Under the pieces are notes generated by a model. It made no database searches. It was not told the origin of the DNA and saw only the letters and a list, made by a program, of their open reading frames with translations. The translations under genes were made by a program, and so were the position numbers. From Candidatus Tectomicrobia bacterium (GTDB lineage Bacteria > UBA8248), in assembly GCA_016192135.1 (NCBI GenBank), contig JACPUR010000011.1, positions 1 through 18,120 of the forward strand: DNA of 18,120 nucleotides. Reading direction: 5' to 3'. This document shows positions 1,113 to 17,820 of the stretch, in pieces; position 1 is the first letter of the stretch; each line of letters opens with the position of its first letter.

Positions 1113-3572
1113 ATGGCCAGGGAGAACCCGGCGGCGTTTTTCTTCTGCCGCTTCGCCTTTTGGATGGTGGCGAGCGTTCTTCTGTCGGGTTGCGCGGCAA
1201 TCACGGCGCAGCCGGAAACCTCTCAGGCCGAGGCGCTGCCCTTCATACGTCAGGGGGATGCCGCCTACGAGCGCATGGCATTCGAGGCGGCCTGGGAGGC
1301 GTACCGCAAGGCGGAAACCGCGGGTGCGCGGAGCGGCGTCGTCTTCTACCGGATGGACACGCTCAACGCCATTCTGAGGAAATCCCATCGGGAGACGGCC
1401 GAAGTCCAGTACCGGAAGGAGACGCGGCGGCTTCTGGACGAGGAGTATCGCGGCGGGAAGGGCGGTCCGGCCGTCTATTTCTATCTCGCTCAGCTGATGG
1501 AGGGCGGCGAAGGATCCGCCTCCCATCGCCACCGCCTTTATGCGGAAGCGGTGAGAAAGTTCGAGTCGGGGGGCTTCGAGAGGCTCGAAACGGGAGATAT
1601 GGAGAAGTTGGGCCGGATGTATCAGTTCCTCGGCCTGCCGGAAAAGGCCGAGAAGCTATTCCTGCAAGCCCAGGCGATGGATAGCCGCAATGCGTTCGCC
1701 GCTTACGGTCTGGGTCAGTTTTACCGTCAAGCGGGACGCCACCGGGCGGCGCTGACGGAATTCGAGCGCTTCACCGGAATCGTTCCCGACGACAAGGAAG
1801 GGCGGTTACTTCTGGGGGAGACTGCCTACGCACTGGGCCAGTATGCACGGGCGGAGAAAGCCTTCGAAACCGCCCTCGCCCTGGGCCCGGCCGCGCCCGA
1901 GGCGCGCAACGGGCTGCGGCGCGCGAGGGAGGCGCTGGAGCGCCGCGGCGCCCTTCAGAAGGAGCAAGCCGTCCTGGCGTGGGACACCGGGTTCAAGACT
2001 CGGCTTCTGCCGCTGACCCTGCCCAGCGACGGCCTCCGGCTTTCTGGCGGAGGCCTGGGACCGCCGGCCGTGAGCGGCGAGGGAGATATCGCGTTCGCCG
2101 CGGGCGAGGAAAGGCGCTTCAACCTCTATACGTTGTCGGGCAATGGAGTCGATCTGGCCCGGCGGATTTCGAGCTCTTCCGGGTTCACCTCGTTCGAGCG
2201 CGAAGAAAAGCGTCTGATGGTGACGGTCGACATCGGCCCCCGCCTCGAGGTGGGCGCCTTCGACATACAAAAAGGCACGATGAGGGTCATTCACCGGGGC
2301 GAATGCCAGCACCCGTACCTGTCGGAAAGGCACCGCGCGCTCCTCTGTGGCACTCCCGGAGGCGTGCTCCTGGTGGATCCGGTGGCGGGGCACGCCTCGA
2401 CCGTTTTCCGGGAGCCGCGGGCCCGACATCCGCGGCTGGGCGGGCGCGGGCAAACGATCATCCTCGCCGAACGGGGCGAGGTGATTTGGCTCGACCGGAC
2501 CGGTCAGGAACAGGGCCGTCACCGGATTCCGGGACAAGAGGCGGACGCGAGTTATCCCGATTTTTCTCCGGACGGGTTGTGGATCGTTTCCGGGGAAAGC
2601 GGCCTGCACCTCACCTCCGTCAAGGAGAAGGTTTCCGTCCCGCTGGACCATCCCGCGCTGGAGGGCGCCGGCCGGGCGGCTTTCGACGCCGGGGGCGGGG
2701 CCATCGTGTTCGTGAGGGAGGGAAGACTCTACCGGCTGGAGCTCCCGAAAGAGATGGAGGGCTTTTTCGCGCTCCAACATGCCCGGGTGCTGATCCGGGG
2801 AAACAAGCCGGGCGCCGCGGCCCGCTTGCTCAAGAATCTCCCTTCCGGCGAGCGCGGCCGTTTCGCCTATCAACTCCTGCTGGGCGAAGCGCTGATGGGG
2901 TTGAACGTGCATGAAGAAGCCGAAGCCAGTTTGAACAGGGCCGGCGAACTGGAGCCCAAGGACTGGCGCGCGCCCTTCTTGATCGGAAAGCTCCGCGCAG
3001 CGCGAAAGGACTGGGCGGGGGCGCTTCGGAGCCTGGATCGCGCGGCGCATCTCGCTCCGGACCGGTACGAGGTCTATCTCGCCCGGGCGCAGGCGCACGC
3101 GTCGGCCGGCCGCCGCCAGGCCGCCGCCCAGGACTATCAAGCCGCCCTCCGTCATGCGGAGAAGACGCCGGGCGTCAAAGCGGATGCGGCCGTCCTGGGC
3201 CTGCTCGACGCCTACGTGCGGGAAGGACGGATCGATGAGGCCCTCCTGCTGCTGATCGATCGGGCGGGGAGCCTGAGCCCCCAGACCCTTCATACCGTCC
3301 GCACGGCCGCCCGCTATCAGCCTCTCCAGCGCGATTCCCGCCTCCGGGAAATTCTGGGGCTTCCCCGCGAGGCCGCTTTGCGGGACTCCTCTGAGCCGTC
3401 ATCGCCGGCGGAGCCCGTGGAGTTCATCCCTTACCGGGCGAACGTCTTTATCGACGACAATCCGAGCCCGGTGCCGTCGGAGGTGATCTCGGAAGAGGGC
3501 GGCGAAGTGACGATCCGGGCGTTCGGCATCGTGGAGAAGTATCCCCGCGGGCGGCTGCGCATCGTCCGCTGA
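1113..3572 (+). CDS. Large TPR / beta-propeller lipoprotein at head of T2SS operon
   Basis: The product has 819 residues. I chose the ATG at 1113 because GGAGGG lies just upstream (1102-1107) and because it gives a lipoprotein signal peptide with lipobox L24-S-G-C27. The frame stays open upstream to about 849, but nothing there looks coding. After the lipidated Cys come helical TPR-like repeats (about 45-280, clearest at 195-260). Next is a beta-rich WD40/PD40-like stretch (about 315-545, with YPDFSPDGLWIVSG as a typical TolB-like blade). A second TPR block follows (about 550-745, with pairs such as EAEASLNRAGELEP and GALRSLDRAAHLAPD), then a short unique tail. TPR-propeller-TPR lipoproteins are protein-interaction scaffolds. 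Its position, 20 nt before gspA, suggests an envelope accessory or secretin-assembly role, which is inference. No sorting-signal exception (Asp at +2) is seen: residue +2 is Ala, compatible with the outer membrane. Confidence 0.85.
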   Translation: MARENPAAFFFCRFAFWMVASVLLSGCAAITAQPETSQAEALPFIRQGDAAYERMAFEAAWEAYRKAETAGARSGVVFYRMDTLNAILRKSHRETAEVQYRKETRRLLDEEYRGGKGGPAVYFYLAQLMEGGEGSASHRHRLYAEAVRKFESGGFERLETGDMEKLGRMYQFLGLPEKAEKLFLQAQAMDSRNAFAAYGLGQFYRQAGRHRAALTEFERFTGIVPDDKEGRLLLGETAYALGQYARAEKAFETALALGPAAPEARNGLRRAREALERRGALQKEQAVLAWDTGFKTRLLPLTLPSDGLRLSGGGLGPPAVSGEGDIAFAAGEERRFNLYTLSGNGVDLARRISSSSGFTSFEREEKRLMVTVDIGPRLEVGAFDIQKGTMRVIHRGECQHPYLSERHRALLCGTPGGVLLVDPVAGHASTVFREPRARHPRLGGRGQTIILAERGEVIWLDRTGQEQGRHRIPGQEADASYPDFSPDGLWIVSGESGLHLTSVKEKVSVPLDHPALEGAGRAAFDAGGGAIVFVREGRLYRLELPKEMEGFFALQHARVLIRGNKPGAAARLLKNLPSGERGRFAYQLLLGEALMGLNVHEEAEASLNRAGELEPKDWRAPFLIGKLRAARKDWAGALRSLDRAAHLAPDRYEVYLARAQAHASAGRRQAAAQDYQAALRHAEKTPGVKADAAVLGLLDAYVREGRIDEALLLLIDRAGSLSPQTLHTVRTAARYQPLQRDSRLREILGLPREAALRDSSEPSSPAEPVEFIPYRANVFIDDNPSPVPSEVISEEGGEVTIRAFGIVEKYPRGRLRIVR

Positions 3573-3592: not shown

Positions 3593-4528
3593 ATGTACAC
3601 GGCGTTCTTCGGACTGAAAGAAAATCCCTTTGGGATTGCCCCCAACCCCAAATACGTCTTCTTGAGCCGGGCGCACCGCGAGGCGATTGCGCACCTGAAA
3701 TACGGCGTCGAGGAACGGAAGGGTTTCATCCTCCTCACGGGCGAGGTGGGCACGGGCAAGACGCTCCTCTGCCGCTGCCTTCTCAACGCATTCGGCGATG
3801 ATGTGAAGACGGCCCTCATCCTGAACCCGATCGACTCGGCCGATGGGCTTCTCCGCCGCATGAACCGGGACTTGGGAATCGACATGCAGCCCGGCGACAA
3901 GCCGCTCGATCGCTTGAACGAATTCCTCCTGGAATGTTACCCGCGCGGGCAGAATTGCGTTCTCATCATCGACGAAGCCCACAACCTTCCGCTCGAGGTG
4001 CTCGAGCAAATCCGTCTCGTGTCGAATCTCGAGACCGAACGCAGCAAGCTCATCCAGATCATCCTGGTGGGGCAGGAAGAGCTGAATGTCATCCTGGGGC
4101 TGCATTCCATGCGGCAGCTTCGGGAGCGGATAGCCGTCGGATATCACCTGCGGGGTTTCGACCTCCAGGACACGCGGGAGTACATCCGACACCGCCTTCG
4201 TACCGCCGCCTTGCACCGCCCGCTCGAATTCACGGCCGGCGCGGTGAAGTCGGTCTACCGGGCGACGGGAGGAAACCCCCGCCAGATCAACATCCTCTGC
4301 GACAGGGCCCTCCTCGCCGCTTATTCGAACGGGAAACCCGTCATCAACCGGGCGGCCGTGGCCGAGGCGTGCCGCGAGATGGCCGCCAGCCGGATGGGTC
4401 GGTGGAGGCCCTGGAGCCTGATGGCGGCGGCGCGGGACCTGCCGCCCAGGCGGATCGCGTGGACGGCCGCGGTATTCGCCGGGCTTGTCACCGGTTTCAT
4501 GGCGGGAAGGATTTGGGGATGGCCGTAG
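3593..4528 (+). CDS. gspA: GspA/ExeA-family AAA ATPase with C-terminal membrane anchor
   Basis: The product has 311 residues. The N-terminus MYTAFFGLKENPF is the hallmark of ExeA/GspA-type ATPases. Walker A is GEVGTGKT (50-57), Walker B is VLIIDE (123-128) followed by AHNL, and RQLRERI (174-180) and GGNPRQIN (226-233) match later conserved AAA motifs. A single hydrophobic segment (about 288-308) anchors the ATPase domain to the inner membrane. In Aeromonas, ExeA works with ExeB to remodel peptidoglycan contacts so that the secretin can assemble. The classical protein is about 550 residues and carries a periplasmic peptidoglycan-binding domain. This one stops about three residues after the membrane segment, so that part is missing. 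It starts 20 nt after the lipoprotein gene with a weak GAGG ribosome site, and lies 43 nt before the gspB-like gene. Confidence 0.88.
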   Translation: MYTAFFGLKENPFGIAPNPKYVFLSRAHREAIAHLKYGVEERKGFILLTGEVGTGKTLLCRCLLNAFGDDVKTALILNPIDSADGLLRRMNRDLGIDMQPGDKPLDRLNEFLLECYPRGQNCVLIIDEAHNLPLEVLEQIRLVSNLETERSKLIQIILVGQEELNVILGLHSMRQLRERIAVGYHLRGFDLQDTREYIRHRLRTAALHRPLEFTAGAVKSVYRATGGNPRQINILCDRALLAAYSNGKPVINRAAVAEACREMAASRMGRWRPWSLMAAARDLPPRRIAWTAAVFAGLVTGFMAGRIWGWP

Positions 4529-4571: not shown

Positions 4572-5492
4572 GTGAGCATCATCCTGAAAGCGCTTCAGCG
4601 GGCGGAGCGGGAGCGGCAGTACGCGCACCGCGAAGGCTCCGCTCCCCTCTTCTGGTCTGCGGCCGGGCGGGCGCGGCGTCCGAGGCCGATTGCGGCCCTC
4701 GCCCTCGCTTTCGCATTGGCCGCCGGCGCGGGAGCCTGGTCTCTGGGCGGAAGGGGAAAACAAGCCCCGGAGCGTTCAGACCGCGAGGCGGCCGGGGCCG
4801 GGCCGCAGCGAACGGCGGCCCCGCCCACGGCGAACGCCGCGCCGCGAGCGCCCTTTCCCCCAAAAGACGGCTCAGGCAGGGCCGGCGTCCTTTCCTCCCT
4901 GCCGGCACCGGCGGCCGAGTTGCGGGCGGCGCCGCCCGAGACCTTGATGATTTCCGGAATGACGGCCCGGACCGCCTCCTTCCAGGGGCTTCCGGAAGAA
5001 AAAAAGGCGGCCGCCGCCGCGCTCCCTCCGGCAACCCCGGCCCCGGAGGGCCGTATCCGTGAAGGCCGGCAGCCTGGCGCCGCCCTCCCGGCCCAAGCTC
5101 CGGCGGAGGCGAGGAAGGTCAGCGAGCCAGAGGATCTGGACGAGGCCATCGCGCATTTTCTCGCGGCGCTGCGCGTGCGCCCCCGCCACGCCGCCACCCA
5201 CGCGGCGCTCGGGCGGCTGTACGCGAGGAAGGGTTCCTACATCCTGGCGATCAATGAACTGCGCATGGCGGCGGAACTCGCTCCGGGCGATTCTGAATCC
5301 CTCTACGCCCTGAGCGTCCTCTATGCGCGCCTCGGAAACGCCAAGGCCGCGCGCGATTATCTCGCGCAGACGATCCGCAAGGACCCGGACGCCCGGCAGC
5401 GGGCCCTCGGCGAGCGGGAATTCAGCCGCTTTCTCGCGGATCCTCCATTCCGGGCGCTTTTGGGGGTCACCGCGGAGAATCGCCGCCCATGA
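4572..5492 (+). CDS. gspB: GspB-like inner-membrane protein with periplasmic TPR tail
   Basis: The product has 306 residues. I chose the GTG at 4572 because GGAGG lies 7 nt upstream and because it gives the N-terminus MSIILKALQRAERER, the signature of GspB/ExeB proteins (family form MSxILdALkKAErER). A transmembrane helix follows (about 39-58). Next is a long Ala/Pro-rich periplasmic linker (about 60-185) and then a helical C-terminus with two or three TPR units (about 187-290, including HAALGRLYARKGSYILAINE). Classical GspB ends in a small beta domain that I do not see here, so the TPR part looks like a domain replacement. It presumably pairs with the GspA ATPase encoded just upstream. The stop overlaps the gspC start by 4 nt (ATGA), implying translational coupling. 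The N-terminal assignment is firm. The functional equivalence is inferred. Confidence 0.8.
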   Translation: MSIILKALQRAERERQYAHREGSAPLFWSAAGRARRPRPIAALALAFALAAGAGAWSLGGRGKQAPERSDREAAGAGPQRTAAPPTANAAPRAPFPPKDGSGRAGVLSSLPAPAAELRAAPPETLMISGMTARTASFQGLPEEKKAAAAALPPATPAPEGRIREGRQPGAALPAQAPAEARKVSEPEDLDEAIAHFLAALRVRPRHAATHAALGRLYARKGSYILAINELRMAAELAPGDSESLYALSVLYARLGNAKAARDYLAQTIRKDPDARQRALGEREFSRFLADPPFRALLGVTAENRRP

Positions 5493-6412
5493 GTCTCCGT
5501 CATCTCCTATATGGAGTAACCTTTTTTTTCGGCCTGGCGGGCGCCGTCCTGGCCGTGGACACCTTCTTCACCTATCTGGGCATATGGCAGCCCGCCCCCG
5601 TCGCACTGGCGCCGCCTCCTCCCGCGAATCCGGTCCGGAAGCCGCCAGCCGTCGACTATTCGGTCATCGTCCGCCGGGATTTGTTCGCGCCGGATGCCCC
5701 CCCGGCTCGGCCTCCCGCTCAGGCGCAGGCCGCGCCTCGACGGGAGGTTCCGCCGCCCGCGTCGGCTCCGCCGCCCCCGGCGGCTCCGGAAGAAAACTTC
5801 GCCGCCAAGTTCCGGCTGGTCGGCACCACCGTGTTCCCGAAAGGAGGCGGGTACGCAATCCTGGAGGACGTGGCTTCCAAGCGGCAATCCGTCCACCGGC
5901 AGGGAGACACGGTCCAGGGAGCGGTCGTCGAGAGGGTGAGGCGAGGGGAAGTCCGGCTGGCGATCGGCGGGCGGACCGAAACCCTCACCGTCTTCGAGGA
6001 CAAGGAGGACGGCGGGCCGCAGGGGAAGCCGTCTTCTCCGGGCCCCGGCGCGTCCCGGGAACCCGGCGCCTCCACGGGCCCCCCGTCCCTCTCGGGGCCG
6101 GATAGCGCGGCTGTCAGGCTGCCTCGGGAGCAGGTGGCCCGGGTGGTGGAGCGGGCGAGGAGCTATTTCCGGACGGAGCCCTACGGCCTGCCGGGGGGCG
6201 TCGCGGGTGTGCGGGTGTACCCGCTTCAGGCGGGGGTATTTCAGATCCTGGGATTCCAGCCGGGGGACGTCATCCTCGCCGTCGATGGGAGCGCCGTCAG
6301 GACGGAAGCCGAATTGTTCGCCGCCATGGGCCGGGTGCTGGAAAGGGGCGAGAGCGCCGTCGAGCTTCTCCGCGGCGGGAACAAGCTCAGCCTCTCCTTT
6401 CAGGTCCAATGA
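5489..6412 (+). CDS. gspC: T2SS inner-membrane/secretin linker GspC
   Basis: The product has 307 residues. It has a short cytoplasmic tail, a transmembrane helix (about 8-30), the VDYSVIVRRDLFAP segment typical of GspC, and a Pro-rich linker. A homology-region domain follows (about 103-170, with KFRLVGTTV and GYAILEDVASKRQ). After another Gly/Pro-rich linker comes a C-terminal PDZ domain (about 235-305, with FQILGFQPGDVILAVDG). GspC connects the inner-membrane platform to the N0 domain of the secretin, and its PDZ domain contributes to substrate recognition. It sits directly before gspD, the usual arrangement, with 13 nt between them. The start overlaps the gspB stop as ATGA. Confidence 0.92.
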   Translation: MSLRHLLYGVTFFFGLAGAVLAVDTFFTYLGIWQPAPVALAPPPPANPVRKPPAVDYSVIVRRDLFAPDAPPARPPAQAQAAPRREVPPPASAPPPPAAPEENFAAKFRLVGTTVFPKGGGYAILEDVASKRQSVHRQGDTVQGAVVERVRRGEVRLAIGGRTETLTVFEDKEDGGPQGKPSSPGPGASREPGASTGPPSLSGPDSAAVRLPREQVARVVERARSYFRTEPYGLPGGVAGVRVYPLQAGVFQILGFQPGDVILAVDGSAVRTEAELFAAMGRVLERGESAVELLRGGNKLSLSFQVQ

Positions 6413-6425
6413 CAAAGGGCGCTTT

Positions 6426-8495
6426 ATGAGAAGAGCATGGAGCTGGATGATGCGGGCGGCGCTGCGGCGGGCGCTGGTGGCTCTGATTCTGGCCGGAGCG
6501 GGCCCGGCCGCCTGGGCTCAGGCGCCCGCCCCTGCTCCCCCCGCCCCTCCGGCCGCGGCGGCCGAAGGCGTCATCCTCGATTTCGACAATGCCGACATCC
6601 GGGTGGTCATCCGGCACATCAGCGACCTCACCGGCCGGAACTTCCTGGTGGACGAGAAGGTGCGGGGAAGGGTGACCATCATCACCCCGACGCGGATCCG
6701 CCTCCAGGACGTGTATCAGGTCTTCCTGTCCATCCTTCATACCTATGGCTTCACCGCCGTTCCCGCCGGGAACGTGACGCGCATCCTTCCGCTGGCCGAT
6801 ATCTCCCGCTCGGGCGTCCCGACCGTCCGCCAGCCCGATATCCGCACGCTCTCCGCCTCGGATCGGATCGTAACCGCCATCATCCAGATCCAGCACGCGG
6901 ACACGAACACTTTGTCCACCCTCCTGCGATCCATGGTGGCGCGGGAGGGCAACATCATTCCCTATGTGCCCTCCAATACAATCGTCCTGACCGACACGGC
7001 GGCGAACGTGCAGCGGCTGACGGCGATTGTCCGTTCCCTCGACATCCCTGCGGCCTCCGCCGTCGTGGAGGTCGTGCACCTTCGGCATGCCCAGGCGAAG
7101 GAGCTCGCGGCGACGCTCGAGCGGCTGGGCGAGGAGATCATCGAATCGCCGGAGGCGGCCCGGGGCATCAGGGGTCCCGGCCCTCCGCTGCCCCCGGGCA
7201 GGCTGAGGCAGGTCCGGGTGGTTCCGGACGAGCGGGTCAACTCGCTCATCCTCCTGGCGCCCCTTCCGGAGATGGTCCGGCTGCAGAGCCTGGCCCGGAA
7301 GCTGGACGTTCCGCCTCCCCCCGAGCGGAGGCGGATTCACGTGTACCGTTTGGAAAACGCCGTGGCCGAAGAGCTCGCGCGGGTGCTGACCCAGCAGATC
7401 GAGACCCGCTCCGAGGCGGTGCAGCGCGTGGCGGCCGCGCCGGCGCGCGGCAGGACGACGGCCCCCGCCTCTCCCGCCGCGCCGCCCCGCCGGACCCCGT
7501 CCGCCGCCGGAGGCTCCGCGCCGACCTTCGCGGACGTCACCATCACGCCGGACAAGGCCACCAATTCGCTCATCATCGGCGCCTCGCCGGAGGACTTCCA
7601 GGCGCTGTCCGAGATCATCCGGAACCTGGACATCCAGCGCTCCCAGGTGCTCGTGGAGGGCCTGATCGCGGAGATGACGCTGGACAAGGCCCGCGAGCTC
7701 GGCCTGGAATGGCGCATCCTCAGCGCCCCCAAGGAGGGCGAGACCCGGGTCATCGGCGGCACCAACCTCCCCCTGCCTGGCAGCAGCCAGGGCATCATCA
7801 ATCAGTTCGCCTCCTCTCCCTTCGCCGGGCCGGCCGGGCTGGTGCTCGGGGCCGCGCGCGGCACCATCACTTTCGGCGGCCAGACTTTCTTCGATCTCCG
7901 GGGGCTCATCCGCGCATTCGAGACGGAATCAGACATCAACATCCTCTCGACCCCGCAGATTCTCACCACCGATAACGAGGAGGCGGAGATCATCGTCGGC
8001 GAGAACCGGCCCTTCGTGATTCAAGCGCAGACGACGGCCGAGGGCTCCACGGTGCAGACCTTCGAATTCCGGGACATCGGGGTGAAACTGCGCATCATCC
8101 CGCACATCAGTCCGAACCGCTTCGTGCGGATGAAGATATTCCATGAGATCACCAACTTCGTGACGGAGGCCCAGGTGGGCGCGGTGACCACCACCAAGCG
8201 CCAGGCGGCGACCGCGGTGACGATTGAGGACGGGCAGACGGTTGTCATCGGAGGGCTCATCCGGGACGACATCACCGACGCCAACACGAAGGTCCCGCTG
8301 CTGGGGGACGTACCCATCCTGGGCGGGCTGTTCCGCTCGCAGGCGGCGCGGAGGATCAAGACGAACCTTTTGATCTTCATCACCCCGCGGATCGTGGTCA
8401 CGCCGGAGGAGCACCGCCACCTGACGGAGTTCAAGAAGGAGGAGACCGGGCTCATTCGGCGGCCGTTGAGGCCCTCCATCAAGGAGAGGATGTGA
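6426..8495 (+). CDS. gspD: T2SS outer-membrane secretin GspD
   Basis: The product has 689 residues. I chose the ATG at 6426 because AAAGGG sits 6 nt upstream and it opens a signal peptide (basic start, hydrophobic core to about 29, AWAQA cleavage region). Domains in order are N0 (about 48-118, LDFDNADIRVVIRHIS), N1 (about 145-208), N2 (about 210-297), N3 (about 303-405, interrupted by an Ala/Pro-rich loop at 333-366) and the secretin beta-barrel core (about 406-658). The core ends with the family signature VPLLGDVPILGGLF (623-636) and TNLLIFITPRIV. It forms the multimeric outer-membrane channel. Only about 30 residues follow the core, so there is no obvious long S-domain for a pilotin. The stop overlaps the gspE start as GTGA. 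Confidence 0.96.
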   Translation: MRRAWSWMMRAALRRALVALILAGAGPAAWAQAPAPAPPAPPAAAAEGVILDFDNADIRVVIRHISDLTGRNFLVDEKVRGRVTIITPTRIRLQDVYQVFLSILHTYGFTAVPAGNVTRILPLADISRSGVPTVRQPDIRTLSASDRIVTAIIQIQHADTNTLSTLLRSMVAREGNIIPYVPSNTIVLTDTAANVQRLTAIVRSLDIPAASAVVEVVHLRHAQAKELAATLERLGEEIIESPEAARGIRGPGPPLPPGRLRQVRVVPDERVNSLILLAPLPEMVRLQSLARKLDVPPPPERRRIHVYRLENAVAEELARVLTQQIETRSEAVQRVAAAPARGRTTAPASPAAPPRRTPSAAGGSAPTFADVTITPDKATNSLIIGASPEDFQALSEIIRNLDIQRSQVLVEGLIAEMTLDKARELGLEWRILSAPKEGETRVIGGTNLPLPGSSQGIINQFASSPFAGPAGLVLGAARGTITFGGQTFFDLRGLIRAFETESDINILSTPQILTTDNEEAEIIVGENRPFVIQAQTTAEGSTVQTFEFRDIGVKLRIIPHISPNRFVRMKIFHEITNFVTEAQVGAVTTTKRQAATAVTIEDGQTVVIGGLIRDDITDANTKVPLLGDVPILGGLFRSQAARRIKTNLLIFITPRIVVTPEEHRHLTEFKKEETGLIRRPLRPSIKERM

Positions 8496-10207
8496 ATTTC
8501 GCGGTTCAGGAACGGAAGCGGCTGGGGGAATGGCTGCAGGAGACGGCGGGGCTGGACCCGGCCCGGCTGGATTCGGCGCTGGCCGAGCAGCGGTTGAGCG
8601 GAGGCCTGCTGGGGGAGATCCTGGTGGGAAAAGGCCTGGTCACCGAGCGCGCCCTCCTGGAGGCGCTCGGGCGCCAGTGGAACGTGCCCTACCTGGAGGA
8701 GCTGGATCTCGGAGGGCTCGATCCGTCCCTGCTGGGGCGCCTTCCCGTTCCGTTCCTGCTCCGGCACAAGGTGGTGCCCGCCCGGCAGGAGAACGGCGGC
8801 CTCCTCGTCGCCACCGTGAATCCGCTCAACATGGCTCCCGTGGACGCCCTGGGCTCGGCCCTGGAGATGCGGACCGAGATCGCGCTGGCGCCCGAGCGGG
8901 TCATCCTGAGCGCCATCCATTCCCTTTATGAGCGCGAGGAGCATTCCGCCGGGGCCATGATCGAGGAGCTCGATGTCGGCGGCTCCGCCATCGAGGCGCC
9001 CGAAGGGACGGAGCTGGGAGAGGAGCTCGACCTCTCCCACGACGCTCCCGTCATCAAGCTGGTCAACCGCGTCATCTACCAGGCGGCGAGGGACCGGGCC
9101 AGCGATATCCACTGGGAGCCCTTCGAGAGGGAGATGCGCGTCCGCCTCCGGGTGGACGGCGTCCTGCACGACGTTCTCCGCTTCGACCAGCGCTATCAGG
9201 CCCCCGTGACCGCCCGCCTGAAGATCATGGCCGGAATGGACATCGCCGAGCGCCGCCTGCCCCAGGACGGGCGCATCCAGCGGAAGGTCGGGAGCCGCGA
9301 GATCGACATGCGCGTTTCGTCCGTGCCGACCATCCACGGAGAGCGGCTCGTCCTGCGCCTCCTGGACCGGAGCAGCATGCTCCACTCGCTGGAGGACATC
9401 GGGCTATCGGGCGGCCAGTTCACCGCCTTCGAGGGCCTCATCCGCCGGGCGCACGGCATCATCCTGGTCACGGGGCCGACCGGCAGCGGCAAGACGACCA
9501 CTCTCTACGCGGCCATCCAGAAGCTTCATCAGACGCACACGAACATCATGACCATCGAGGATCCCGTCGAATACCAGCTCGACGGCATCGCCCAGATGCA
9601 GGTGTCGACCAAGACGGGCTTCGGCTTCTCCGAGGGGCTCCGGTCGGTGCTTCGCCAGGACCCGGACATCATCCTCGTGGGCGAAATCCGGGACCGGGAG
9701 ACGGCCGAGGTGGCCATCCACGCCTCCCTGACGGGGCACCTGGTCTTCAGCACCCTCCATACGAACAACGCCGTCGGGGCGATCACGCGTCTCGTGGACA
9801 TGGGGATCGAGCCGTTCCTCATCTCCTCGTCCGTCATCGCCGTCCTGGCCCAGCGCCTGGGCCGCCGGGTCTGCCCCCGCTGCGCCGAGGCGGCGCCGGC
9901 GGAGGCGGGGGCGCTGGAGCGGATGGGCATCCCAGCGGAGGAGATTCCCGCCCTCTCGGGCCGCCTCCGGCGCGGGAGGGGCTGCCCGGAGTGCTATCAG
10001 ACGGGCTACCGGGGCCGCACCGGGATTTTCGAGCTGCTGACGATCGACGACGACCTTCGGGAGCTGATCATGGCCCGGAAGGACGCCTCCACGCTCAACG
10101 CCGCCGCCGTCAAGAAAGGGATGCGGACGCTCCTGGCCGACGGAGCCCGGAAGGTGGCCGCCGGAGTCACCACCCCGGAAGAAGTGCTCCGCATCATTCA
10201 GACATAG
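8492..10207 (+). CDS. gspE: T2SS cytoplasmic ATPase GspE with tandem MshEN-like N-terminus
   Basis: The product has 571 residues with a GTG start preceded by AAGGAGAGGA. The N-terminal domain has two 24-residue MshEN-like motifs: R10-L-G to Q33 and L39-L-G to Q62, with a 5-residue spacer between them. In MshE-type ATPases this arrangement binds cyclic di-GMP. The catalytic core has the Asp box around 204-225 (ASDIHWEP, RLRVDGVLHD), Walker A GPTGSGKT (328-335), Walker B DPDIILVGEIRD (390-401) and a His box (HASLTGHLVFSTLHTN, 410-425). A tetracysteine zinc site follows (C461, C464, C498, C501). GspE is the hexameric motor that docks on GspL and GspF and drives pseudopilus assembly. All catalytic motifs are intact. 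Confidence 0.96.
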   Translation: MNFAVQERKRLGEWLQETAGLDPARLDSALAEQRLSGGLLGEILVGKGLVTERALLEALGRQWNVPYLEELDLGGLDPSLLGRLPVPFLLRHKVVPARQENGGLLVATVNPLNMAPVDALGSALEMRTEIALAPERVILSAIHSLYEREEHSAGAMIEELDVGGSAIEAPEGTELGEELDLSHDAPVIKLVNRVIYQAARDRASDIHWEPFEREMRVRLRVDGVLHDVLRFDQRYQAPVTARLKIMAGMDIAERRLPQDGRIQRKVGSREIDMRVSSVPTIHGERLVLRLLDRSSMLHSLEDIGLSGGQFTAFEGLIRRAHGIILVTGPTGSGKTTTLYAAIQKLHQTHTNIMTIEDPVEYQLDGIAQMQVSTKTGFGFSEGLRSVLRQDPDIILVGEIRDRETAEVAIHASLTGHLVFSTLHTNNAVGAITRLVDMGIEPFLISSSVIAVLAQRLGRRVCPRCAEAAPAEAGALERMGIPAEEIPALSGRLRRGRGCPECYQTGYRGRTGIFELLTIDDDLRELIMARKDASTLNAAAVKKGMRTLLADGARKVAAGVTTPEEVLRIIQT

Positions 10208-10236
10208 TGGACGCTATGCGGGACGGAAGGTAGGGG

Positions 10237-11457
10237 ATGCCGGTATTCGTGTACCGGGCGCTGGATTCGAAGGGCCGCGCCCACGAAGATCAGATCGTCG
10301 CGGAGAGCCTCGTTTCGGCGCGGGAGGCGATCCGCAGGAAAGGGTTCTATCCCGTCGAGGTCCGCGACGACCGGGCGGGATTCTGGACCTCGCCCCTCCT
10401 CGCGCTCCCGTTCCGGGGGGAGCGGCTCTCGTTCGCGGAACTGGTCGGCTTCACGCGTCAGCTGGCGACGCTCCTGAACGCGGGGATCCAAGTGGTCCCT
10501 GCGTTTTCTTTGCTCATCCGCCAGACTCGGGAGGAAGCCGCCCGGCGCGTGCTGACGAAGATCCGGGAGGCCGTGAACGAGGGCGCCTCCCTCTCCGGCG
10601 CGATGGGCGCCTATCCCCGCGTCTTCTCGAATCTGTACGTCAGCATGGTGCGCGCCGGGGAGAGCAGCGGGGCCCTGGGCACCGTGCTGGAGCGCCTGGC
10701 CCACTACCTGGAGCTCCAGCAGAAGCTCCGGAGGAGGCTGACGGGGGCGCTCGCTTATCCCGCCCTGATGACGCTGGTCGGCTTCGCCGCGATGTTCTTC
10801 ATGATGATCTACGTGGTGCCGAACGTCGTCCAGATCTTCCGGCAGGCGCGCCAGGAGCTCCCTTGGCCCACCCGGATGCTCATCCAGGCGAGCGAGGCGC
10901 TGAGCGCGCACTACGCGCTCATCCTGCTCGGCGTCGCCATCTTGGCCGGGGCCGCCGTCGCCTGGAGCTTCACCAAGCAGGGCCGGGAGTTCATCGACCG
11001 GGCGAAGCTGCGGATCCCGCTGATTGGCGGCCTGGTGCACAAGCGGGCGGTGGCGCGCTTCGGGCGGACGCTGGGGGTGCTCCTGGCGGCGGGCCTGCCC
11101 ATCCTGGAGGCCGCCTCCGTCGCCCGGCTCGTGCTGACGAACACGGCCCTGGAGGCCGCGGTGGAGGAGGCCCGGGAGGAGGTCCACAAGGGCAAGCGGC
11201 TGGGCTCGACCCTGGAGAGGAGCGGGCTCTTCCCGCCGCTCTTCACCGATATGGTGGGCGTGGGCGAGCAATCGGGCTCCTTGGACAAGATGCTGATTCA
11301 CGTCTCGGATTATCTGGATCAGGAGTCGGAGGCCACCATCCAAACCCTCATGTCGCTGGTGGAGCCCTTGCTCATCCTGGTGATGGGGGCCGTGGTCGGC
11401 TTCATCGTGGTGGCGACGCTGCTGCCGCTTTTCGAGATCAGCCAGCTCATCCGCTGA
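10237..11457 (+). CDS. gspF: T2SS inner-membrane platform protein GspF
   Basis: The product has 406 residues, a normal length. The N-terminus MPVFVYRALDSKGR is characteristic. Two homologous T2SSF domains (about 69-192 and 272-394) each carry the conserved helix motif, GESSGALGTVLERLAHYLE in the first and GEQSGSLDKML in the second. Three membrane segments are visible (about 172-197, 225-244 and 373-397). GspF is the polytopic platform protein that couples GspE rotation to pseudopilin insertion. The ATG is preceded by an AGGAAGG-like run (GGAAGGTAGGGG) directly upstream. The gene lies 29 nt after gspE and 25 nt before gspL, the longest gaps in the core operon. Confidence 0.96.
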   Translation: MPVFVYRALDSKGRAHEDQIVAESLVSAREAIRRKGFYPVEVRDDRAGFWTSPLLALPFRGERLSFAELVGFTRQLATLLNAGIQVVPAFSLLIRQTREEAARRVLTKIREAVNEGASLSGAMGAYPRVFSNLYVSMVRAGESSGALGTVLERLAHYLELQQKLRRRLTGALAYPALMTLVGFAAMFFMMIYVVPNVVQIFRQARQELPWPTRMLIQASEALSAHYALILLGVAILAGAAVAWSFTKQGREFIDRAKLRIPLIGGLVHKRAVARFGRTLGVLLAAGLPILEAASVARLVLTNTALEAAVEEAREEVHKGKRLGSTLERSGLFPPLFTDMVGVGEQSGSLDKMLIHVSDYLDQESEATIQTLMSLVEPLLILVMGAVVGFIVVATLLPLFEISQLIR

Positions 11458-11482
11458 TCCCAGGACGAAGGGAATCCATCGC

Positions 11483-12985
11483 ATGTTCCGCAGGATCATC
11501 GGGATCGAGCTGAGTGGCCGCTCCCTGCACGCCGCCGGCATCCGCTGGGGATGGAGGCAGCCCGCGCTGGAGGGGTTCCTGGGCCTGGATCTTCCGCCGG
11601 AGGAGGAGGGCGAGGACGCCTGGCGGGAGGCACAGGACGCGCTGAGGGGCTGGATGGCGGCCCAGGGGGGCCGGCCCTCCCTGACGGTGGCGAGCCTGCC
11701 CGGGCCGGAGGGGTTCTCGGCCCCGCTTCATTTCCCCTTCCGCCGGATGTCCAAGGCGCGTCAGGTCGTCAAGTCGGCGATGGAGGGCGAGATCCCTCTC
11801 ACCGTGGAGGAGACGCTGGCCGATTTCGTCCCGGCGCCCCGGACCGCCCCCGAGGGTGCCGATGTCTTCGCGGTGGCCGTCCCCAAGACCGCCCTCGCCC
11901 GCCATCTCGGCCGGCTGGAGCGCCTGGGGCTCTTCCCGGACCGGGTGCATTACTCCCCCCTGGCCGAACTGGAGGCGGCGCGGAGCCTCGCCCCGGACCT
12001 GGCCCGGGGCGGGCTGGGAGTGGCGCACGTGGAAGCGGGGCACGCGACCTTCCTCGTCGCGAAGGACGGCCTGCCCGTCCACCTCCGGACCTTTCGGCGC
12101 AAGCCCTTCCCGGACCGCCCGGAGGAAGGCGGCGAGGAGGCGGTCGTGCGCGAGCTCCAGATGGCGCTTTGGAGCTGGCAAGGCTCGCCCAAGGCCGGCT
12201 TCGAGGTGGAGCGGCTGGTCCTGGCCGGGGCGGGCGGCACGGAGCAGCTCGCATCGGCCCTCGAAGGGGCGCTGAACCTCCCCTGCCGCCCCCTCTCCCT
12301 CGGGCCCGGCTCCCTCCTGCCCGCGGACGCGGCCCCGCCGCCGGACATCCTCATGCGCATCGGCGCGGCCCTAGGGGCGGGCTTCAGCGCGCTGAATCCG
12401 CTGCGGACCCCGTTCGACCTGCGCCAGGAAGAGCTCGCGCTGCGTCCGGGCTGGGAAGGGCTGAAGCGCCCCGCCGCCGCGGCCGCCGCCGCGGTCCTCG
12501 CCTTCGGGACGCTCGGCTACGCGGACCTGGCCCTCAAGGTCCGGCGGGAGGCGCGCCGGGCCGCGGCCGCGGAACAGCAGGTCCGCGCGGTTTTCGACGA
12601 GGTGTTCCCGCAGGGCACGCGCATCGTGGACGCGCAGAGCCAGCTGGCGGCCCAGATCCAGGAGCAGGCCGTGCGGCTGGACTTCCTGACGGGCGGCCCG
12701 GGGAACGGCGGCGATCCCCTCGAGGCGATCGCGAAGGTGAGCCGGGCCATCCCCGCCACGATCAAGGTGCGGATCAACCGGATGGAGATCGACGAGATGG
12801 GGCTCTCGCTGGAGGGGGAAACCTACGGCTTCGAGGGCGTGGACCGGATCAAGTCCGGCCTCATGCTCGAGCGGGGCTTCGAGCGGCTCGAGGTCAAGCA
12901 GGCCCGCCTCATCGAGGGAAAGCAGGAGGTGCATTTTCTGATGCGCATCCCGTTCCCGGGCGCCCCCGAGGAGAGAAGGCGATGA
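11483..12985 (+). CDS. gspL: T2SS platform protein GspL (actin-like cytoplasmic domain, periplasmic ferredoxin-like domain)
   Basis: The product has 500 residues. It opens with IIGIELSGRSLHAAGI, the phosphate-1-like strand of actin-fold PilM/GspL cytoplasmic domains. It continues with SLPGPEGFSAPLHFPFRR and a GGLGVAHVEAGHATFLV strand typical of that fold, up to about 315. One membrane helix (about 329-350, Ala-rich) follows. Then comes a periplasmic part with a helical linker (352-420) and a ferredoxin-like domain (about 423-490). GspL recruits GspE to the membrane and pairs with GspM. Sequence divergence is high, as is usual for GspL, so the call rests on architecture, length and its position before gspM. 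It lies between gspF and gspM rather than after gspK, which is uncommon. Confidence 0.87.
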   Translation: MFRRIIGIELSGRSLHAAGIRWGWRQPALEGFLGLDLPPEEEGEDAWREAQDALRGWMAAQGGRPSLTVASLPGPEGFSAPLHFPFRRMSKARQVVKSAMEGEIPLTVEETLADFVPAPRTAPEGADVFAVAVPKTALARHLGRLERLGLFPDRVHYSPLAELEAARSLAPDLARGGLGVAHVEAGHATFLVAKDGLPVHLRTFRRKPFPDRPEEGGEEAVVRELQMALWSWQGSPKAGFEVERLVLAGAGGTEQLASALEGALNLPCRPLSLGPGSLLPADAAPPPDILMRIGAALGAGFSALNPLRTPFDLRQEELALRPGWEGLKRPAAAAAAAVLAFGTLGYADLALKVRREARRAAAAEQQVRAVFDEVFPQGTRIVDAQSQLAAQIQEQAVRLDFLTGGPGNGGDPLEAIAKVSRAIPATIKVRINRMEIDEMGLSLEGETYGFEGVDRIKSGLMLERGFERLEVKQARLIEGKQEVHFLMRIPFPGAPEERRR

Positions 12986-13548
12986 AGAAGCTGTCGCGCC
13001 GGGAATCCATTTTCGTCGCGGCCGGCCTGGCCCTGGCGGTGCTGATAGGGATGGAGGAGTGGGTCTTCCGCCCGCTCTGGCAGCGGCGTCAGGAACTCAT
13101 CGCGAGCCGGGAACGGCACGAAGGCCAGCTCCGCTCGCTCGAGGGCCTGCTGGCCCGGTACCGCCGCCACGATGCGGACCTGAAGACGGTCGAGAAGCGC
13201 CTCATCCGGCAGGGGGACGATTTCTCCCTTTTCTATTTCCTGGAGGAAACCGCTGGAATGACGGGCATCCGCGAGAAGCTGGTGGCGATGAACCCGTCCG
13301 AGTCCGCGGGGACCCCCGATTACCAGCGCATCGAGATGCTCATCCGCTTCGAGGACCTGACCATGGCGCAGGCGGTGGAGTACCTCCGGCGGCTGGCGGA
13401 TGCGCCGAGGCTCCTGCGCGTGAGCCGCCTGAGCCTCGAGCGCTCGACCCGGCAGCCGGGCCGGGTGGCGCTCGGCGCCTCGGTTTCCGCCTTTTCCTCG
13501 AAGCGGACCCAGGAGAAACCCCGCGGCCCGGAGGGCGCCGCGCGATGA
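12982..13548 (+). CDS. gspM: T2SS platform protein GspM (PilO-like)
   Basis: The product has 188 residues. The ATG overlaps the gspL stop (ATGA), preceded by a purine-rich GAGGAGAGAAGG. It has a short basic cytoplasmic start (KKLSRR), one transmembrane helix (about 9-24), a predicted coiled coil (about 33-80) and a C-terminal ferredoxin-like periplasmic domain (about 105-165, IEMLIRFEDLTMAQAVEYL then a strand). This is the GspM/PilO layout. GspM stabilises GspL and contributes to the platform. Sequence identity in this family is low, so the assignment depends on topology and on the adjacent gspL. It overlaps gspG by 4 nt. Confidence 0.85.
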   Translation: MKKLSRRESIFVAAGLALAVLIGMEEWVFRPLWQRRQELIASRERHEGQLRSLEGLLARYRRHDADLKTVEKRLIRQGDDFSLFYFLEETAGMTGIREKLVAMNPSESAGTPDYQRIEMLIRFEDLTMAQAVEYLRRLADAPRLLRVSRLSLERSTRQPGRVALGASVSAFSSKRTQEKPRGPEGAAR

Positions 13549-14015
13549 ACCGGAAGGAGAACGGCTTGGAAGAAGAAAAGAAGCGCCGAAGCGCGGGGTT
13601 CACGCTCATCGAACTGATGGTGGTGATCGTCATCTTGGGCCTTCTGATCGGCGTCATCGGCTTCCGCCTGATGGGCCGCACCGAAGAGGCGCGCCGGACG
13701 GCGGCCAAGCTCCAAATGCGCAGCCTCGTCAACGCCCTGCAGCTCTACAAGCTGGACAGCGGCGGCTATCCGACGACGGAGCAGGGCCTGGAGGCCCTGG
13801 TGCGGCCTCCCGCGCGGGGGACCGCCCCCCGGAACTACCCTCCCGGGGGCTATTTGGAGGGTGGGCAGGTTCCGCGCGACCCGTGGGGCAACCCCTACGT
13901 GTACATGGCTCCGGGGGCGCAGGGCCGGGAATTCGAGATCCGCTCCCTCGGGGCGGACGGGAAAGAGGGGGGCGAGGGGGAGAATGCCGACATCGGGAGC
14001 TGGGACCTCCGCTGA
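13545..14015 (+). CDS. gspG: Major pseudopilin GspG
   Basis: The product has 156 residues from the ATG that overlaps the gspM stop. The type III (prepilin) signal has a charged leader ending in RRSAG, cleavage after G18, then F19-T-L-I-E with the conserved Glu at mature position 5 and a hydrophobic helix to about 42. Downstream are the GspG hallmarks: YKLDSGGYPTTEQGLEALV, the DPWGNPY segment, and GADGKEGGEGENADIGSW, which contains the calcium-binding loop. GspG is the major subunit of the pseudopilus that pushes substrate through the secretin. A TTG at 13566 with AAGGAG 6 nt upstream would give a shorter 11-residue leader and is a credible alternative start. Confidence 0.95.
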   Translation: MNRKENGLEEEKKRRSAGFTLIELMVVIVILGLLIGVIGFRLMGRTEEARRTAAKLQMRSLVNALQLYKLDSGGYPTTEQGLEALVRPPARGTAPRNYPPGGYLEGGQVPRDPWGNPYVYMAPGAQGREFEIRSLGADGKEGGEGENADIGSWDLR

Positions 14016-14514
14016 GGAGGGCTTCACCCTGGTCGAGCTGGCCGTCGCCCTCCTGGTGGCCGGCCTGCTCTTCGGGCTGGCCCTCACGCGGTTCATGCCG
14101 CCGGAGGGCTCCGGCGCCCTGCGGGCCGACGCCCTCGCGCTGGCGGAGGGCATACGCAAGCTGAGGAACCACGCCGTATCCTCGGGCCTCATGGTCCGCC
14201 TCCGCCTGCGGCTGCCGGCCGGCGCCTGGAAGGCCGAGGGAATGGACAACCTGGGCAACTGGAACCCCCTGCAGGGCTCTCCCGTGCCCGCCGGGGAGCT
14301 CTCGCGGGGGATCCAGCTCCGCCGGGTGCGCTGGGGGAGCGGGAAGGAGATCTCGGAGGGGGAGGCGGAGCTGCGGATCCTGCCCACGGGCGAGACGCAG
14401 GAAATCTATCTCTACCTGTCCGACGGCCGCCGGCACGAGCGGACGCTCACCGTCCACCCCTTCCTGAACCGGGTGGACGTCCAGCGGGGAAGGGTCGAGG
14501 CCCATGCGCGGTAG
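13984..14514 (+). CDS. gspH: Minor pseudopilin GspH
   Basis: The product has 176 residues. A prepilin signal follows a 13-residue leader: cleavage after G13 (SAEEG), then FTLVELAVALLVAGLL, with Glu at mature position 5. The C-terminal part (about 70-170) is beta-rich, as in GspH-like minor pseudopilins, and includes a GNWNPL turn. The ATG at 13984 is the only nearby start. It lies inside gspG, giving a 32-nt overlap, and follows a GGGGGAGA run. The leader has no Lys or Arg, which is atypical for prepilin-type leaders. Role: a subunit of the pseudopilus at or near its tip, inferred from the family and from its place between gspG and gspI. Confidence 0.83.
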   Translation: MPTSGAGTSAEEGFTLVELAVALLVAGLLFGLALTRFMPPEGSGALRADALALAEGIRKLRNHAVSSGLMVRLRLRLPAGAWKAEGMDNLGNWNPLQGSPVPAGELSRGIQLRRVRWGSGKEISEGEAELRILPTGETQEIYLYLSDGRRHERTLTVHPFLNRVDVQRGRVEAHAR

Positions 14515-14866
14515 CCGGAGAGAGGAAGGCTTCACCCTCATCGAGCTGATGGTGGCGCTCGTCATCATCAGCCTCGTGGCGGCCGTGACCTTCCGCCTCC
14601 AGTATCAGGGGTTCCGCGTCTACGAGCGCACCAGCCAGCTCACGGACGCCGTCCTCCTCGCCCAGGAAAAGCTGTCGGAGGCCCAAATCTCCGCGGTCCG
14701 CGCGGGCAGGGGGAGCGTCCGCGCGGCCTCGGGCGGCGAGCTCTTTTGGGAGGTTCTGGTCACGGCCACGCGGCATCCGGGGGTCCATTCGGTCCTCGTG
14801 CGGGTGCGCCCCCGGGCGGCCGCCTCCCCTATCCTGGAGGTCTCGACCTATGTCGCGGATCCCTGA
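14504..14866 (+). CDS. gspI: Minor pseudopilin GspI
   Basis: The product has 120 residues, a normal size for GspI. The leader MRGSRREEG is cleaved before FTLIELMVALVIISLV (Glu at mature position 5). The mature protein includes AVLLAQEKLSEAQ, which corresponds to the conserved A-x-x-x-A-E/Q-x-x helix of GspI. The gene begins 11 nt inside gspH and ends 17 nt inside gspJ, so translation is tightly coupled. GspI is the core of the GspI-J-K tip complex that initiates the pseudopilus. Confidence 0.87.
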   Translation: MRGSRREEGFTLIELMVALVIISLVAAVTFRLQYQGFRVYERTSQLTDAVLLAQEKLSEAQISAVRAGRGSVRAASGGELFWEVLVTATRHPGVHSVLVRVRPRAAASPILEVSTYVADP

Positions 14867-15566
14867 CGCCTCCCGCCGCCTCCGGGGCAAGGGCCCGGGC
14901 GCCCCCCGGGGATTCTCGCTGCTCGAGCTGATGGTCGCCCTCGCCATCCTCTCCTTCGTCATGGCGGCGCTCTACGTGAGTGTCGGATCGAGCGCGGCCC
15001 ACGCCCGCCGGCTCCGGGAGCGCATGGAGCACCACCAGGCCGCCCGCCGCGCGATGCAGCGGATGGCGGCCGACCTGGAGGGGCTGTTCGTCCCGCCGGT
15101 GGAGGCGGCCCCGCTCTTCTCGGGGGATCGGGGGGACGCCGACACGGGCCGGGCCGACCGCATCGAGTTCGTGACCCCGGTCTACACATGGGGGCAGTCC
15201 GTGCAGCAGACCGACGACCTCGCCGTCGTCGCCTACTGGCTGGCCACGGACGGGGAGGGGAACCGCCTGCTGCGGCAGAAGAGGCCGCTCAACGGCGAGG
15301 TTTTGGCCGAGGGCCGCTCCACGGTCATCCTGGAGGGCGTGAAGGAGCTGCGCTTCGAGTACCTGGACCGGAAGGGGACCCGCAGCGATGCCTGGGCGGG
15401 CCGGGGGCCGGCCTCCCTGCCCGCCGCCGTGCGGGTGACCTTCATTCTCGAGGGCGGCGGGGGGGCGGGGGACGCGGCCTTCTCGACCCTCATCGCCCTC
15501 CCGGCGGGCGCCAGGCTTCCTGCGCCGGAGAAGGGGGCGCCTCCGGCGGGAGGGGGGGCGAGGTGA
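14850..15566 (+). CDS. gspJ: Minor pseudopilin GspJ
   Basis: The product has 238 residues. A basic leader of 21 residues (ending in GAPRG) precedes FSLLELMVALAILSFV, with Glu at mature position 5. The large beta-rich domain includes RAMQRMAADLEGLF, YWLATDGEGNRLLRQ and a VKELRFEYLDRKG strand, all typical of GspJ. A low-complexity Gly/Pro-rich tail (from about 215) is extra. GGAGG lies 9 nt upstream of the ATG. The stop overlaps the gspK start (GTGA). GspJ is part of the pseudopilus tip trimer. Confidence 0.9.
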   Translation: MSRIPDASRRLRGKGPGAPRGFSLLELMVALAILSFVMAALYVSVGSSAAHARRLRERMEHHQAARRAMQRMAADLEGLFVPPVEAAPLFSGDRGDADTGRADRIEFVTPVYTWGQSVQQTDDLAVVAYWLATDGEGNRLLRQKRPLNGEVLAEGRSTVILEGVKELRFEYLDRKGTRSDAWAGRGPASLPAAVRVTFILEGGGGAGDAAFSTLIALPAGARLPAPEKGAPPAGGGAR

Positions 15567-16531
15567 TCCGGGAGGCCAGAAGGCGGCTCGGCCGCCAGCG
15601 CGGCGCGGCTCTCCTCATGGCCATCGCGGCCACGGGCCTGCTCGCCATGATCGCGGCCGAGATCGCCGGGAGCGCCCTGGACGAAACCCATCTGGCGGAC
15701 GCCTTCCGCGACGACCTCCGGGCGCGGTGGGCGGTCCAGGCCCCGGTCGCCCTCGTCATCTCCGCCCTGCGGGAGGAGAAGGAGGCCTTCACCTCCCTCG
15801 GCCAGAAATGGGCGAGGCTCGACGGGACGCTGACCCTGGGCGGCATCCCGGTGCGCTTCCGCGTCCACGACGAGTCCGCCAAGATCAACTTGAACGCCCT
15901 GGCCTCCGCGGCCGCGGCGCGGCAGGAGGGGACCGCCCGGGCCCTCAAGAAGCTGTTCGATCGGCTCAAGCTGGACCCCGCCCTGGTGGACTTCCTGCGG
16001 GACTGGATCGATCCCGACGCGGACGCCCGCGCGGGGGGGAGCGAGACGGCCTACTACCAGAGCCTTCCCCGCCCCTATCCGGTCAAGAACGGCACACTCG
16101 ATTCCCTCTCGGAGCTGCGGCTGGTACGGGGTTACACGCCCAAGGTCCTCCGCGCCCTGGGGTTCCCCGACCGGGGGGAGGCCCCCGACCTGGGCCTGAG
16201 CGGCCGCCTGACCCTCTACTCCGGCGAGACCGTGAACGTGAACACCGCCGGGCGGGATGTCCTCCTGAGCCTGCCGGACCTGCCGGAGAACGCCGTGGAG
16301 GACCTGGTCGCGCGGCGGAACGCGGAGCCCATCCGCGAGCTGGCAGACCTCAAGAAGCTCTCCGGGATGACGGATGCCCTCTACAACAAGGTGGCTCCCA
16401 TGCTGGGTGTGGAGAGCCGGTTCTTCTCCGTCGAATCCGAAACCGAGGGTGGCCGGATGCGCAAGCGCCTCCTGGCCGTCCTCAAGAGGGAGAAGGAGCA
16501 AGTGAGCATCGTCTATTGGCGGATGCTCTGA
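15563..16531 (+). CDS. gspK: Pseudopilus tip protein GspK
   Basis: The product has 322 residues from the GTG that overlaps the gspJ stop. The leader ends in GRQRG, then AALLMAIAATGLLAMI. The usual Glu at mature position 5 is absent, which is the known exception for GspK. The rest carries the GspK family features: FRVHDESAKINLNAL, a DWIDPDADARAGGSE segment rich in acidic residues, then the helical repeats including VNVNTAGRDVLLSLPDL and a helix-hairpin-helix-like motif (RELADLKKLSGM). GspK caps the pseudopilus and blocks uncontrolled elongation. It sits directly before the prepilin peptidase with no gap. Confidence 0.93.
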   Translation: MIREARRRLGRQRGAALLMAIAATGLLAMIAAEIAGSALDETHLADAFRDDLRARWAVQAPVALVISALREEKEAFTSLGQKWARLDGTLTLGGIPVRFRVHDESAKINLNALASAAAARQEGTARALKKLFDRLKLDPALVDFLRDWIDPDADARAGGSETAYYQSLPRPYPVKNGTLDSLSELRLVRGYTPKVLRALGFPDRGEAPDLGLSGRLTLYSGETVNVNTAGRDVLLSLPDLPENAVEDLVARRNAEPIRELADLKKLSGMTDALYNKVAPMLGVESRFFSVESETEGGRMRKRLLAVLKREKEQVSIVYWRML

Positions 16532-17308
16532 GTGGCCGCGGGGGAGCTTCTCCGCCTCGCCTTCGCCGCCGCCCTGGGCCTGTGCGCGGGCAGCTTCCTC
16601 GGCACCTGCATCGAGCGCGTCCCGCGCGGCCTCTCGGTGCTGCGCCCCCGTTCCCGCTGCGAGGGCTGCGGTGCCCCCCTCGGCCCCGCGGAGCTCGTCC
16701 CCGTCCTCAGCTACCTCCTCCAGAGGGGCCGCTGCCGCCGCTGCGGGGCCGCCATCGGAGCGGGCCATCTCCTGGCCGAGCTGGGCGCGGCGGCCCTGGC
16801 CGTGGCGGCCTATCTCCAGGAGGGGTTCTCGCCGGAGTTCTTCCGCACGTTCGGCCTCGCCTGCGTCTTCCTGGCCGTGGCGGCGGTGGACCTCCGGCAC
16901 CGGATCATCCCGGACGGCTTCGTCGCCGCGGGCCTCCTCGCCGCCTTTCTCGGGGCGCCGCTCCCGGGGCCTCCCACACTCCTCGGCGCGGGTCTGGGGC
17001 TCATCGCGGGAGGGGGCGGATTTTTCCTCGTGCGGGAGGCCTACCGCCGCCTCCGGGGGCGGGAGGGGATGGGGGCCGGGGACGTGAAGCTGGCGGCCCT
17101 GATGGGAGCGGCCCTGGGTCCCGGGGGCTGGCTCGCCGCCGTCCTCCTGGCCTCGGCCGCGGGCACGGCCGTGGGCCTAGGCCTCGTGCTCGCGGGGCGG
17201 GCGACCTGGACGTCGGCCCTGCCGTTCGGGGCGTTTCTCGCCGGAGCCTCCCTCCTGATGCTGTTCTGCCTCCCCTGCCTCTTCTTTTTTAGCTCCTCGT
17301 TTCAGTGA
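16532..17308 (+). CDS. gspO: Prepilin peptidase / N-methyltransferase GspO (PilD family)
   Basis: The product has 258 residues. Its GTG begins immediately after the gspK stop. The N-terminus has GSFLGTCIERVPRG, the family motif. A zinc tetracysteine follows (C43, C46, C68, C71). The two catalytic aspartates of this aspartic peptidase family are visible: D120 in VDLRHRIIPD, and D184 in GMGAGDVKL (the GxGD motif). About seven hydrophobic segments span the inner membrane, ending in PFGAFLAGASLL. The enzyme removes the leaders of GspG, H, I, J and K and methylates the new N-terminus. It closes the operon, 77 nt before the terminator. Confidence 0.95.
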   Translation: MAAGELLRLAFAAALGLCAGSFLGTCIERVPRGLSVLRPRSRCEGCGAPLGPAELVPVLSYLLQRGRCRRCGAAIGAGHLLAELGAAALAVAAYLQEGFSPEFFRTFGLACVFLAVAAVDLRHRIIPDGFVAAGLLAAFLGAPLPGPPTLLGAGLGLIAGGGGFFLVREAYRRLRGREGMGAGDVKLAALMGAALGPGGWLAAVLLASAAGTAVGLGLVLAGRATWTSALPFGAFLAGASLLMLFCLPCLFFFSSSFQ

Positions 17309-17385: not shown

Positions 17386-17419
17386 GCACCGCCCCTCCCA
17401 CGGGGCAGTGCTTTTTTTT
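17386..17419 (+). terminator. Intrinsic terminator of the T2SS operon
   Basis: GCACCGCCCC and GGGGCAGTGC can pair over 10 bp with one mismatch around a 6-nt loop (TCCCAC), followed directly by eight T residues. This is a textbook rho-independent terminator placed 77 nt after the last gene. Confidence 0.9.
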
Positions 17420-17616: not shown

Positions 17617-17699
17617 GGCTTCAGGGATTTATCTGCAATCGGGCCGCAAAATTAACGTTCGTCTAACGCAAGGTTTCCGTTGCCGTATCGCGAGGCAGG

Positions 17700-17708
17700 T
17701 ATATTCCG
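17700..17708 (+). promoter_or_regulatory. TATATTCCG motif, possible -10 region of right gene
   Basis: The nine bases match those at 398-406 on the other strand, at a comparable distance (about 112 nt) from the start codon. As a -10 box it would be TATATT, but no good -35 lies at the right spacing. Confidence 0.3.
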
Positions 17709-17820
17709 GGGCGGAATTGAGGGAAACACCTCTATAACCCCTCGGGGAAAACCCGAATTCTTCCGGAAGCGGCCCGCCGCCGGTCCTTCCCCGGACGAAT
17801 CCCCCATGGATGGATCCCCC

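Follow-up and report, generated by a model that had tools for sequence, protein, structure and literature searches.

Delivery of the T2SS secretin to the outer membrane, and its retention there, are known for a few proteobacteria, which employ GspS/AspS pilotins and the GspA-GspB pair; GspA and GspB have an envelope assembly role elsewhere. A precedent from the Tad system is the TPR lipoprotein TadD, which binds its secretin, RcpA, at the final residues (PMC10499894). PorE of the T9SS, an outer-membrane-associated lipoprotein that combines TPR, TolB-like propeller, CRD and OmpA domains, is needed for secretion, and its proposed role is to fix the machine to peptidoglycan (PMC5053529, PMC7192894). 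Here we describe a large TPR lipoprotein with a probable beta-propeller, encoded by the first gene of a T2SS operon in an 18,120-nucleotide stretch of Candidatus Tectomicrobia DNA (the window, from the genome that we call G000); a search of the literature turned up no earlier account of a T2SS protein of this kind.

The lipoprotein, its domains and its operon

The lipoprotein gene (1113..3572; all coordinates are on the + strand unless noted) is an open frame of 819 aa with an ATG start, with a Shine-Dalgarno-like GGAGGG 5 nt upstream. Its product carries Pfam TPRs and has a homologue that is 42% identical in a related genome (G008). A start at the TTG at position 849 was ruled out by codon-position G+C: from the ATG, the frame has G+C of 0.71/0.49/0.80 at the three codon positions, and because the third-position value is only 0.56 in the upstream TTG extension, we take the ATG to be the correct start. 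The signal peptide and lipobox (1113..1193; LSGC, with Cys27 and Ala at +2) are recognizable in the sequence, and the lipobox is conserved in the G008 homologue as AGC with Gly at +2. In E. coli, lipoproteins with Ala at +2 go to the outer membrane, and under this rule LSGC followed by Ala indicates a lipoprotein of the outer-membrane type. The 819-residue lipoprotein with an outer-membrane-compatible lipobox described in the initial annotation is thus borne out.

Pfam recognizes TPRs alone in this protein (TPR_19 at 3.6e-15, TPR_16 in five stretches), placed on either side of a gap of ~260 residues, and PF09691 and PF16549 (PulS/OutS and AspS) are not among the matches. All NCBIfam matches are driven by the TPRs and lie far below cut-off, so that, as had been claimed, the protein fits no named Gsp component family in either collection. 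The N-terminal TPR arm (residues about 37-285; 1221..1967) and the C-terminal arm (residues about 550-750; 2760..3362) are both helical in a single-sequence AlphaFold model, with pLDDT of about 58-88 over residues 51-190 and of 74-90 over residues 651-740, respectively. The tail that follows (3363..3569) is variable, with 7% identity to the G008 homologue, and a third homologue (G007) has an OmpA domain at the matching position.

Between the two arms, residues about 290-548 (1980..2756) probably form a six-bladed TolB/PD40-like beta-propeller. This region of the window protein has no Pfam match; it is 47% identical to that of the G008 homologue, which gives a sub-threshold PD40 match (E 0.019). 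Repeats of ~40 aa begin near residues 317, 358, 400, 439, 481 and 521, and the internal repeat score of the region is 358, versus 292 +/- 17 in 500 shuffles; aligning the six with MAFFT was not informative. When a profile was built from the two sequences, window protein and G008 homologue, it aligned with TolB propellers (E 8e-4) along 170-200 residues, covering about four blades in one alignment; among its PDB matches up to E 1, nearly all were beta-propellers. AlphaFold run on single sequences without an alignment gave no confident propeller, with a mean pLDDT of 49.7 for the full protein and 36.9 for the segment alone. Hence, of the proposed TPRs on both sides of a WD40/PD40-like region, the TPR arms are supported by Pfam and by the predicted structure of the protein alone, and the propeller remains a probable assignment from weak sequence signals.

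The lipoprotein gene also heads the transcription unit, as the initial annotation had it. It is followed after 20 bp by gspA, and then by gspB, gspC, gspD, gspE, gspF, gspL, gspM, gspG, gspH, gspI, gspJ, gspK and gspO, which together make up a complete T2SS; the later gaps, for which some start codons are uncertain, range from -17 to 37 bp through the end of gspO, and a terminator-like hairpin lies 3' of gspO at 17391. The gspA/ExeA-like AAA ATPase (3593..4528; TIGR03015 at 6.8e-81, below cut-off) stops just past its TM segment and, unlike the GspA of the known pair, is without a peptidoglycan-binding domain. The next product (4572..5492; SIILKALQRAERERQ N-terminus, one TM segment) we call GspB-like from its N-terminal motif and position; its C-terminal TPRs, found by Pfam, look like an unusual addition. 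These are followed by gspC (5489..6412; PDZ, NF041515 at 4e-22, below cut-off), the gspD secretin (6426..8495; TIGR02517, 510.7 bits) and gspE, F, L, M, G, H, I, J and K with the prepilin peptidase gspO (8492..17308), among which I, J, K and O were assigned by position and sequence motifs.

Two similar genes that point outward are cut off by the ends of the contig, leaving their 5' parts (1-300 on the - strand and 17680-18120 on the + strand), each with a signal peptide and GGDLQAALNSAQPGDAIELQAGATFTGNFTLPN, inside a 189-bp inverted repeat (94%) at which the contig probably broke. Neither has a Pfam match; by eye they resemble right-handed beta-helix secreted proteins, and they are possible T2SS substrates.

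Relatives and co-occurrence with GspD

When we compared 18 genomes of the phylum, all from one family, GspD scored above cut-off in three, G000, G007 and G008, which belong to three genera. The lipoprotein was found in 3/3 of the genomes with GspD and in 0/15 of those without; the chance of such a matching distribution is 1/816, a figure that is not independent of operon linkage. The G008 homologue is full length, and that of G007 is a fragment of just the C-terminal 253 residues at the start of a contig. In both, the lipoprotein gene directly precedes gspC-gspD, and in the window it precedes gspA-gspB-gspC-gspD, so the survey of gene neighbourhoods suggested earlier places it next to, and upstream of, gspA or gspC in 3/3 loci, counting the contig-edge fragment of G007. 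Since gspAB intervene in G000 and are missing from between the genes in the other two, the lipoprotein stays with the gsp genes despite this difference. For G007 and G008, the most similar gspA-type ATPases are encoded on other contigs, and T2SS-free relatives have comparable ones, which makes gspAB beside the lipoprotein particular to G000. Identity among the lipoprotein homologues (40-42%) is comparable to that of gspC and gspL (35-46%).

In a sample of 386 genomes from across the domain, with two candidates scored in each, we found no further full-length relative. Two scans of genome contigs with short peptide patterns, a weak negative, found no relative. Among 80 stretches around gspC in other phyla, of which about 75 were usable and some were cut by contig ends, none had a relative upstream of gspC; one gspB-like ORF matched the lipoprotein weakly, probably through its TPRs. 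Other large ORFs before gspC in these stretches were rejected as equivalents because by sequence or Pfam they look like something else (tRNA synthetases, sigma-54 regulators, RecJ, DXP reductoisomerase and others), as were the fn3 lipoproteins of loci L099 and L118. The latter are observations in their own right: two genomes of another family carry a different lipoprotein of ~810 aa with fn3 directly before gspC (L099:4546-6996 and L118:1460-3889). In several T2SS loci of other phyla (L095, L096 and L098), the genes just before gspC encode sigma-54 response regulators.

We had also looked for homologues lying mostly away from T2SS loci; they turned up only at T2SS loci, in each of the three genomes of the phylum that bear a T2SS, in agreement with the proposal of a lineage-specific protein. 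On this sequence evidence, an association of the lipoprotein with the T2SS is likely. Because it lies beside the secretion genes in the sole three related genomes that have them, this is probably an accessory protein of the T2SS at the outer membrane that has not been described before. That it is instead an unrelated envelope lipoprotein, standing before the gsp genes by chance, seems improbable: TPR and propeller lipoproteins are common and all three loci may come from one ancestral operon, but the gene has been kept beside gsp genes across three genera with ~40% identity left and gene order changed, and no T2SS-free copy was found among the 18 genomes of the phylum.

The same distribution bears on a broader role in envelope assembly. 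Two lipoproteins of the BAM machinery have the matching domain types, BamD being a TPR protein and BamB a propeller, so the window protein might be an analogous fusion that helps envelope proteins to fold, the T2SS being one of its clients. We regard this as very improbable, given that no copy was found in the 15 phylum members that lack GspD but should still depend on BAM, and that the profile of the middle region prefers TolB among solved structures.

The G007 homologue has a distinct feature, an OmpA domain of a peptidoglycan-binding family (PF00691, 1e-25) into which its reading frame continues. The domain is absent from the window lipoprotein and from the G008 homologue, so peptidoglycan anchoring is not general in these lipoproteins. 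An anchor is also what this domain suits better than a substrate receptor or sorting factor, which would gather exoproteins at the secretin entrance through the propeller and the TPR grooves. The protein-interaction repeats and the compartment are right for such a receptor, and the genes flanking the G000 operon resemble those of secreted proteins; however, a search of ten other genomes of the family, G007 and G008 included, found none of these flanking genes. A conserved link to substrates is therefore lacking, and we consider a receptor unlikely.

The GspD C-terminus and candidate roles at the secretin

The GspDs of the three genomes are 61-64% identical, and their last ~15 residues diverge save for a terminal SIKERM (8475..8492), which follows a variable linker, is invariant in all three and is thus a candidate docking peptide. 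Its coding sequence overlaps the probable Shine-Dalgarno of gspE, with AAG GAG inside it probably serving as the gspE ribosome-binding site. Because the codons for S, I and R vary synonymously among the genomes, selection on SIKERM as a peptide is likely, as judged from three related sequences with this partial overlap. The ending was seen in 0/25 ORF tails read at gspD positions in other phyla. A search for PulS/OutS and AspS pilotins, which detected its E. coli control but could miss divergent members, found none in G000, G007 or G008; a SlipAM search gave no match anywhere, controls included, and so carries no information.

From the invariant SIKERM, the TadD-RcpA precedent and the failure to find PulS/OutS and AspS, a pilotin role for the lipoprotein is plausible. 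On balance, we favor the somewhat wider reading of an outer-membrane-anchored periplasmic scaffold or assembly factor for the T2SS secretin of this lineage, a function that we infer from three loci of one phylum. Anchored by its lipid, the protein would sit on the periplasmic side of the outer membrane, where its TPR grooves would bind GspC and/or the secretin, the latter likely via the conserved SIKERM C-terminus; the propeller would offer an additional docking surface. By these contacts the lipoprotein could guide GspD to the membrane and stabilize the channel. In the G007 lineage, the C-terminal OmpA domain may in addition attach the complex to peptidoglycan, the role proposed for PorE in T9SS. 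Together, the OmpA domain of G007, the missing pilotin families and the invariant GspD C-terminus favor a scaffold or pilotin over a substrate receptor.

As a special case of the scaffold role, the lipoprotein could be the GspD pilotin proper, its N-terminal TPR arm binding SIKERM and carrying the secretin to the outer membrane in place of GspS/AspS, with the propeller and second TPR arm secondary. Besides the three points given above, this would fit the TPR similarity to PilW (35.9 bits against a cut-off of 154); yet that cut-off and the one for Tgl (13.4 bits, cut-off 225) are not reached, the protein is far larger than known pilotins, and the propeller is conserved as well as the N-terminal TPR arm. 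We therefore hold the strict pilotin role to be possible but rather doubtful.

Comparison with known machines

Like the GspA-GspB pair, whose genes adjoin it in the window, the lipoprotein belongs to the operon, but it is not homologous to them and they are absent from the operons of G007 and G008. TolB of the Tol-Pal system is the best long solved-structure match for its middle region; TolB is not a TPR lipoprotein, though, and the operon is without Tol-Pal genes. With the TPR pilotins TadD, PilF/PilW and Tgl, the protein shares an outer-membrane-type lipoprotein with TPRs that is encoded alongside a secretin, and it differs in being much larger and in having the propeller and a second TPR arm. 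A lineage without detected PulS/OutS or AspS, and with a large TPR-propeller lipoprotein tied to the operon, makes it possible to test directly whether secretin assembly took another course in other phyla.

PorE (PG1058) resembles the lipoprotein in several of its parts: both are lipoproteins with N-terminal TPRs and a TolB-like propeller, probable in ours, that would act as accessories of a secretion machine, and in the G007 homologue the C-terminal OmpA domain is present as well. They differ in that our protein goes with T2SS rather than T9SS, has a second TPR arm where PorE has the CRD, between propeller and OmpA domain, and, in the window, is without the OmpA domain. The NCBIfam PorE model NF052230 gives 16.9 bits against a cut-off of 600, through the TPR part only (E 0.0015), and by analogy the lipoprotein plausibly works like PorE though it lies outside this family model. 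More speculatively, and with considerable doubt on our part, it may represent a further route for building and anchoring a T2SS secretin, in which one large outer-membrane lipoprotein would unite a TPR pilotin with a TolB-like propeller and, in some members, with an anchor to peptidoglycan, would do the work of GspS and partly that of GspAB, and would have converged on the plan of T9SS PorE. The lipoprotein also gives a case in which to test whether the layout of PorE is found again in secretion machines that are unrelated to one another.
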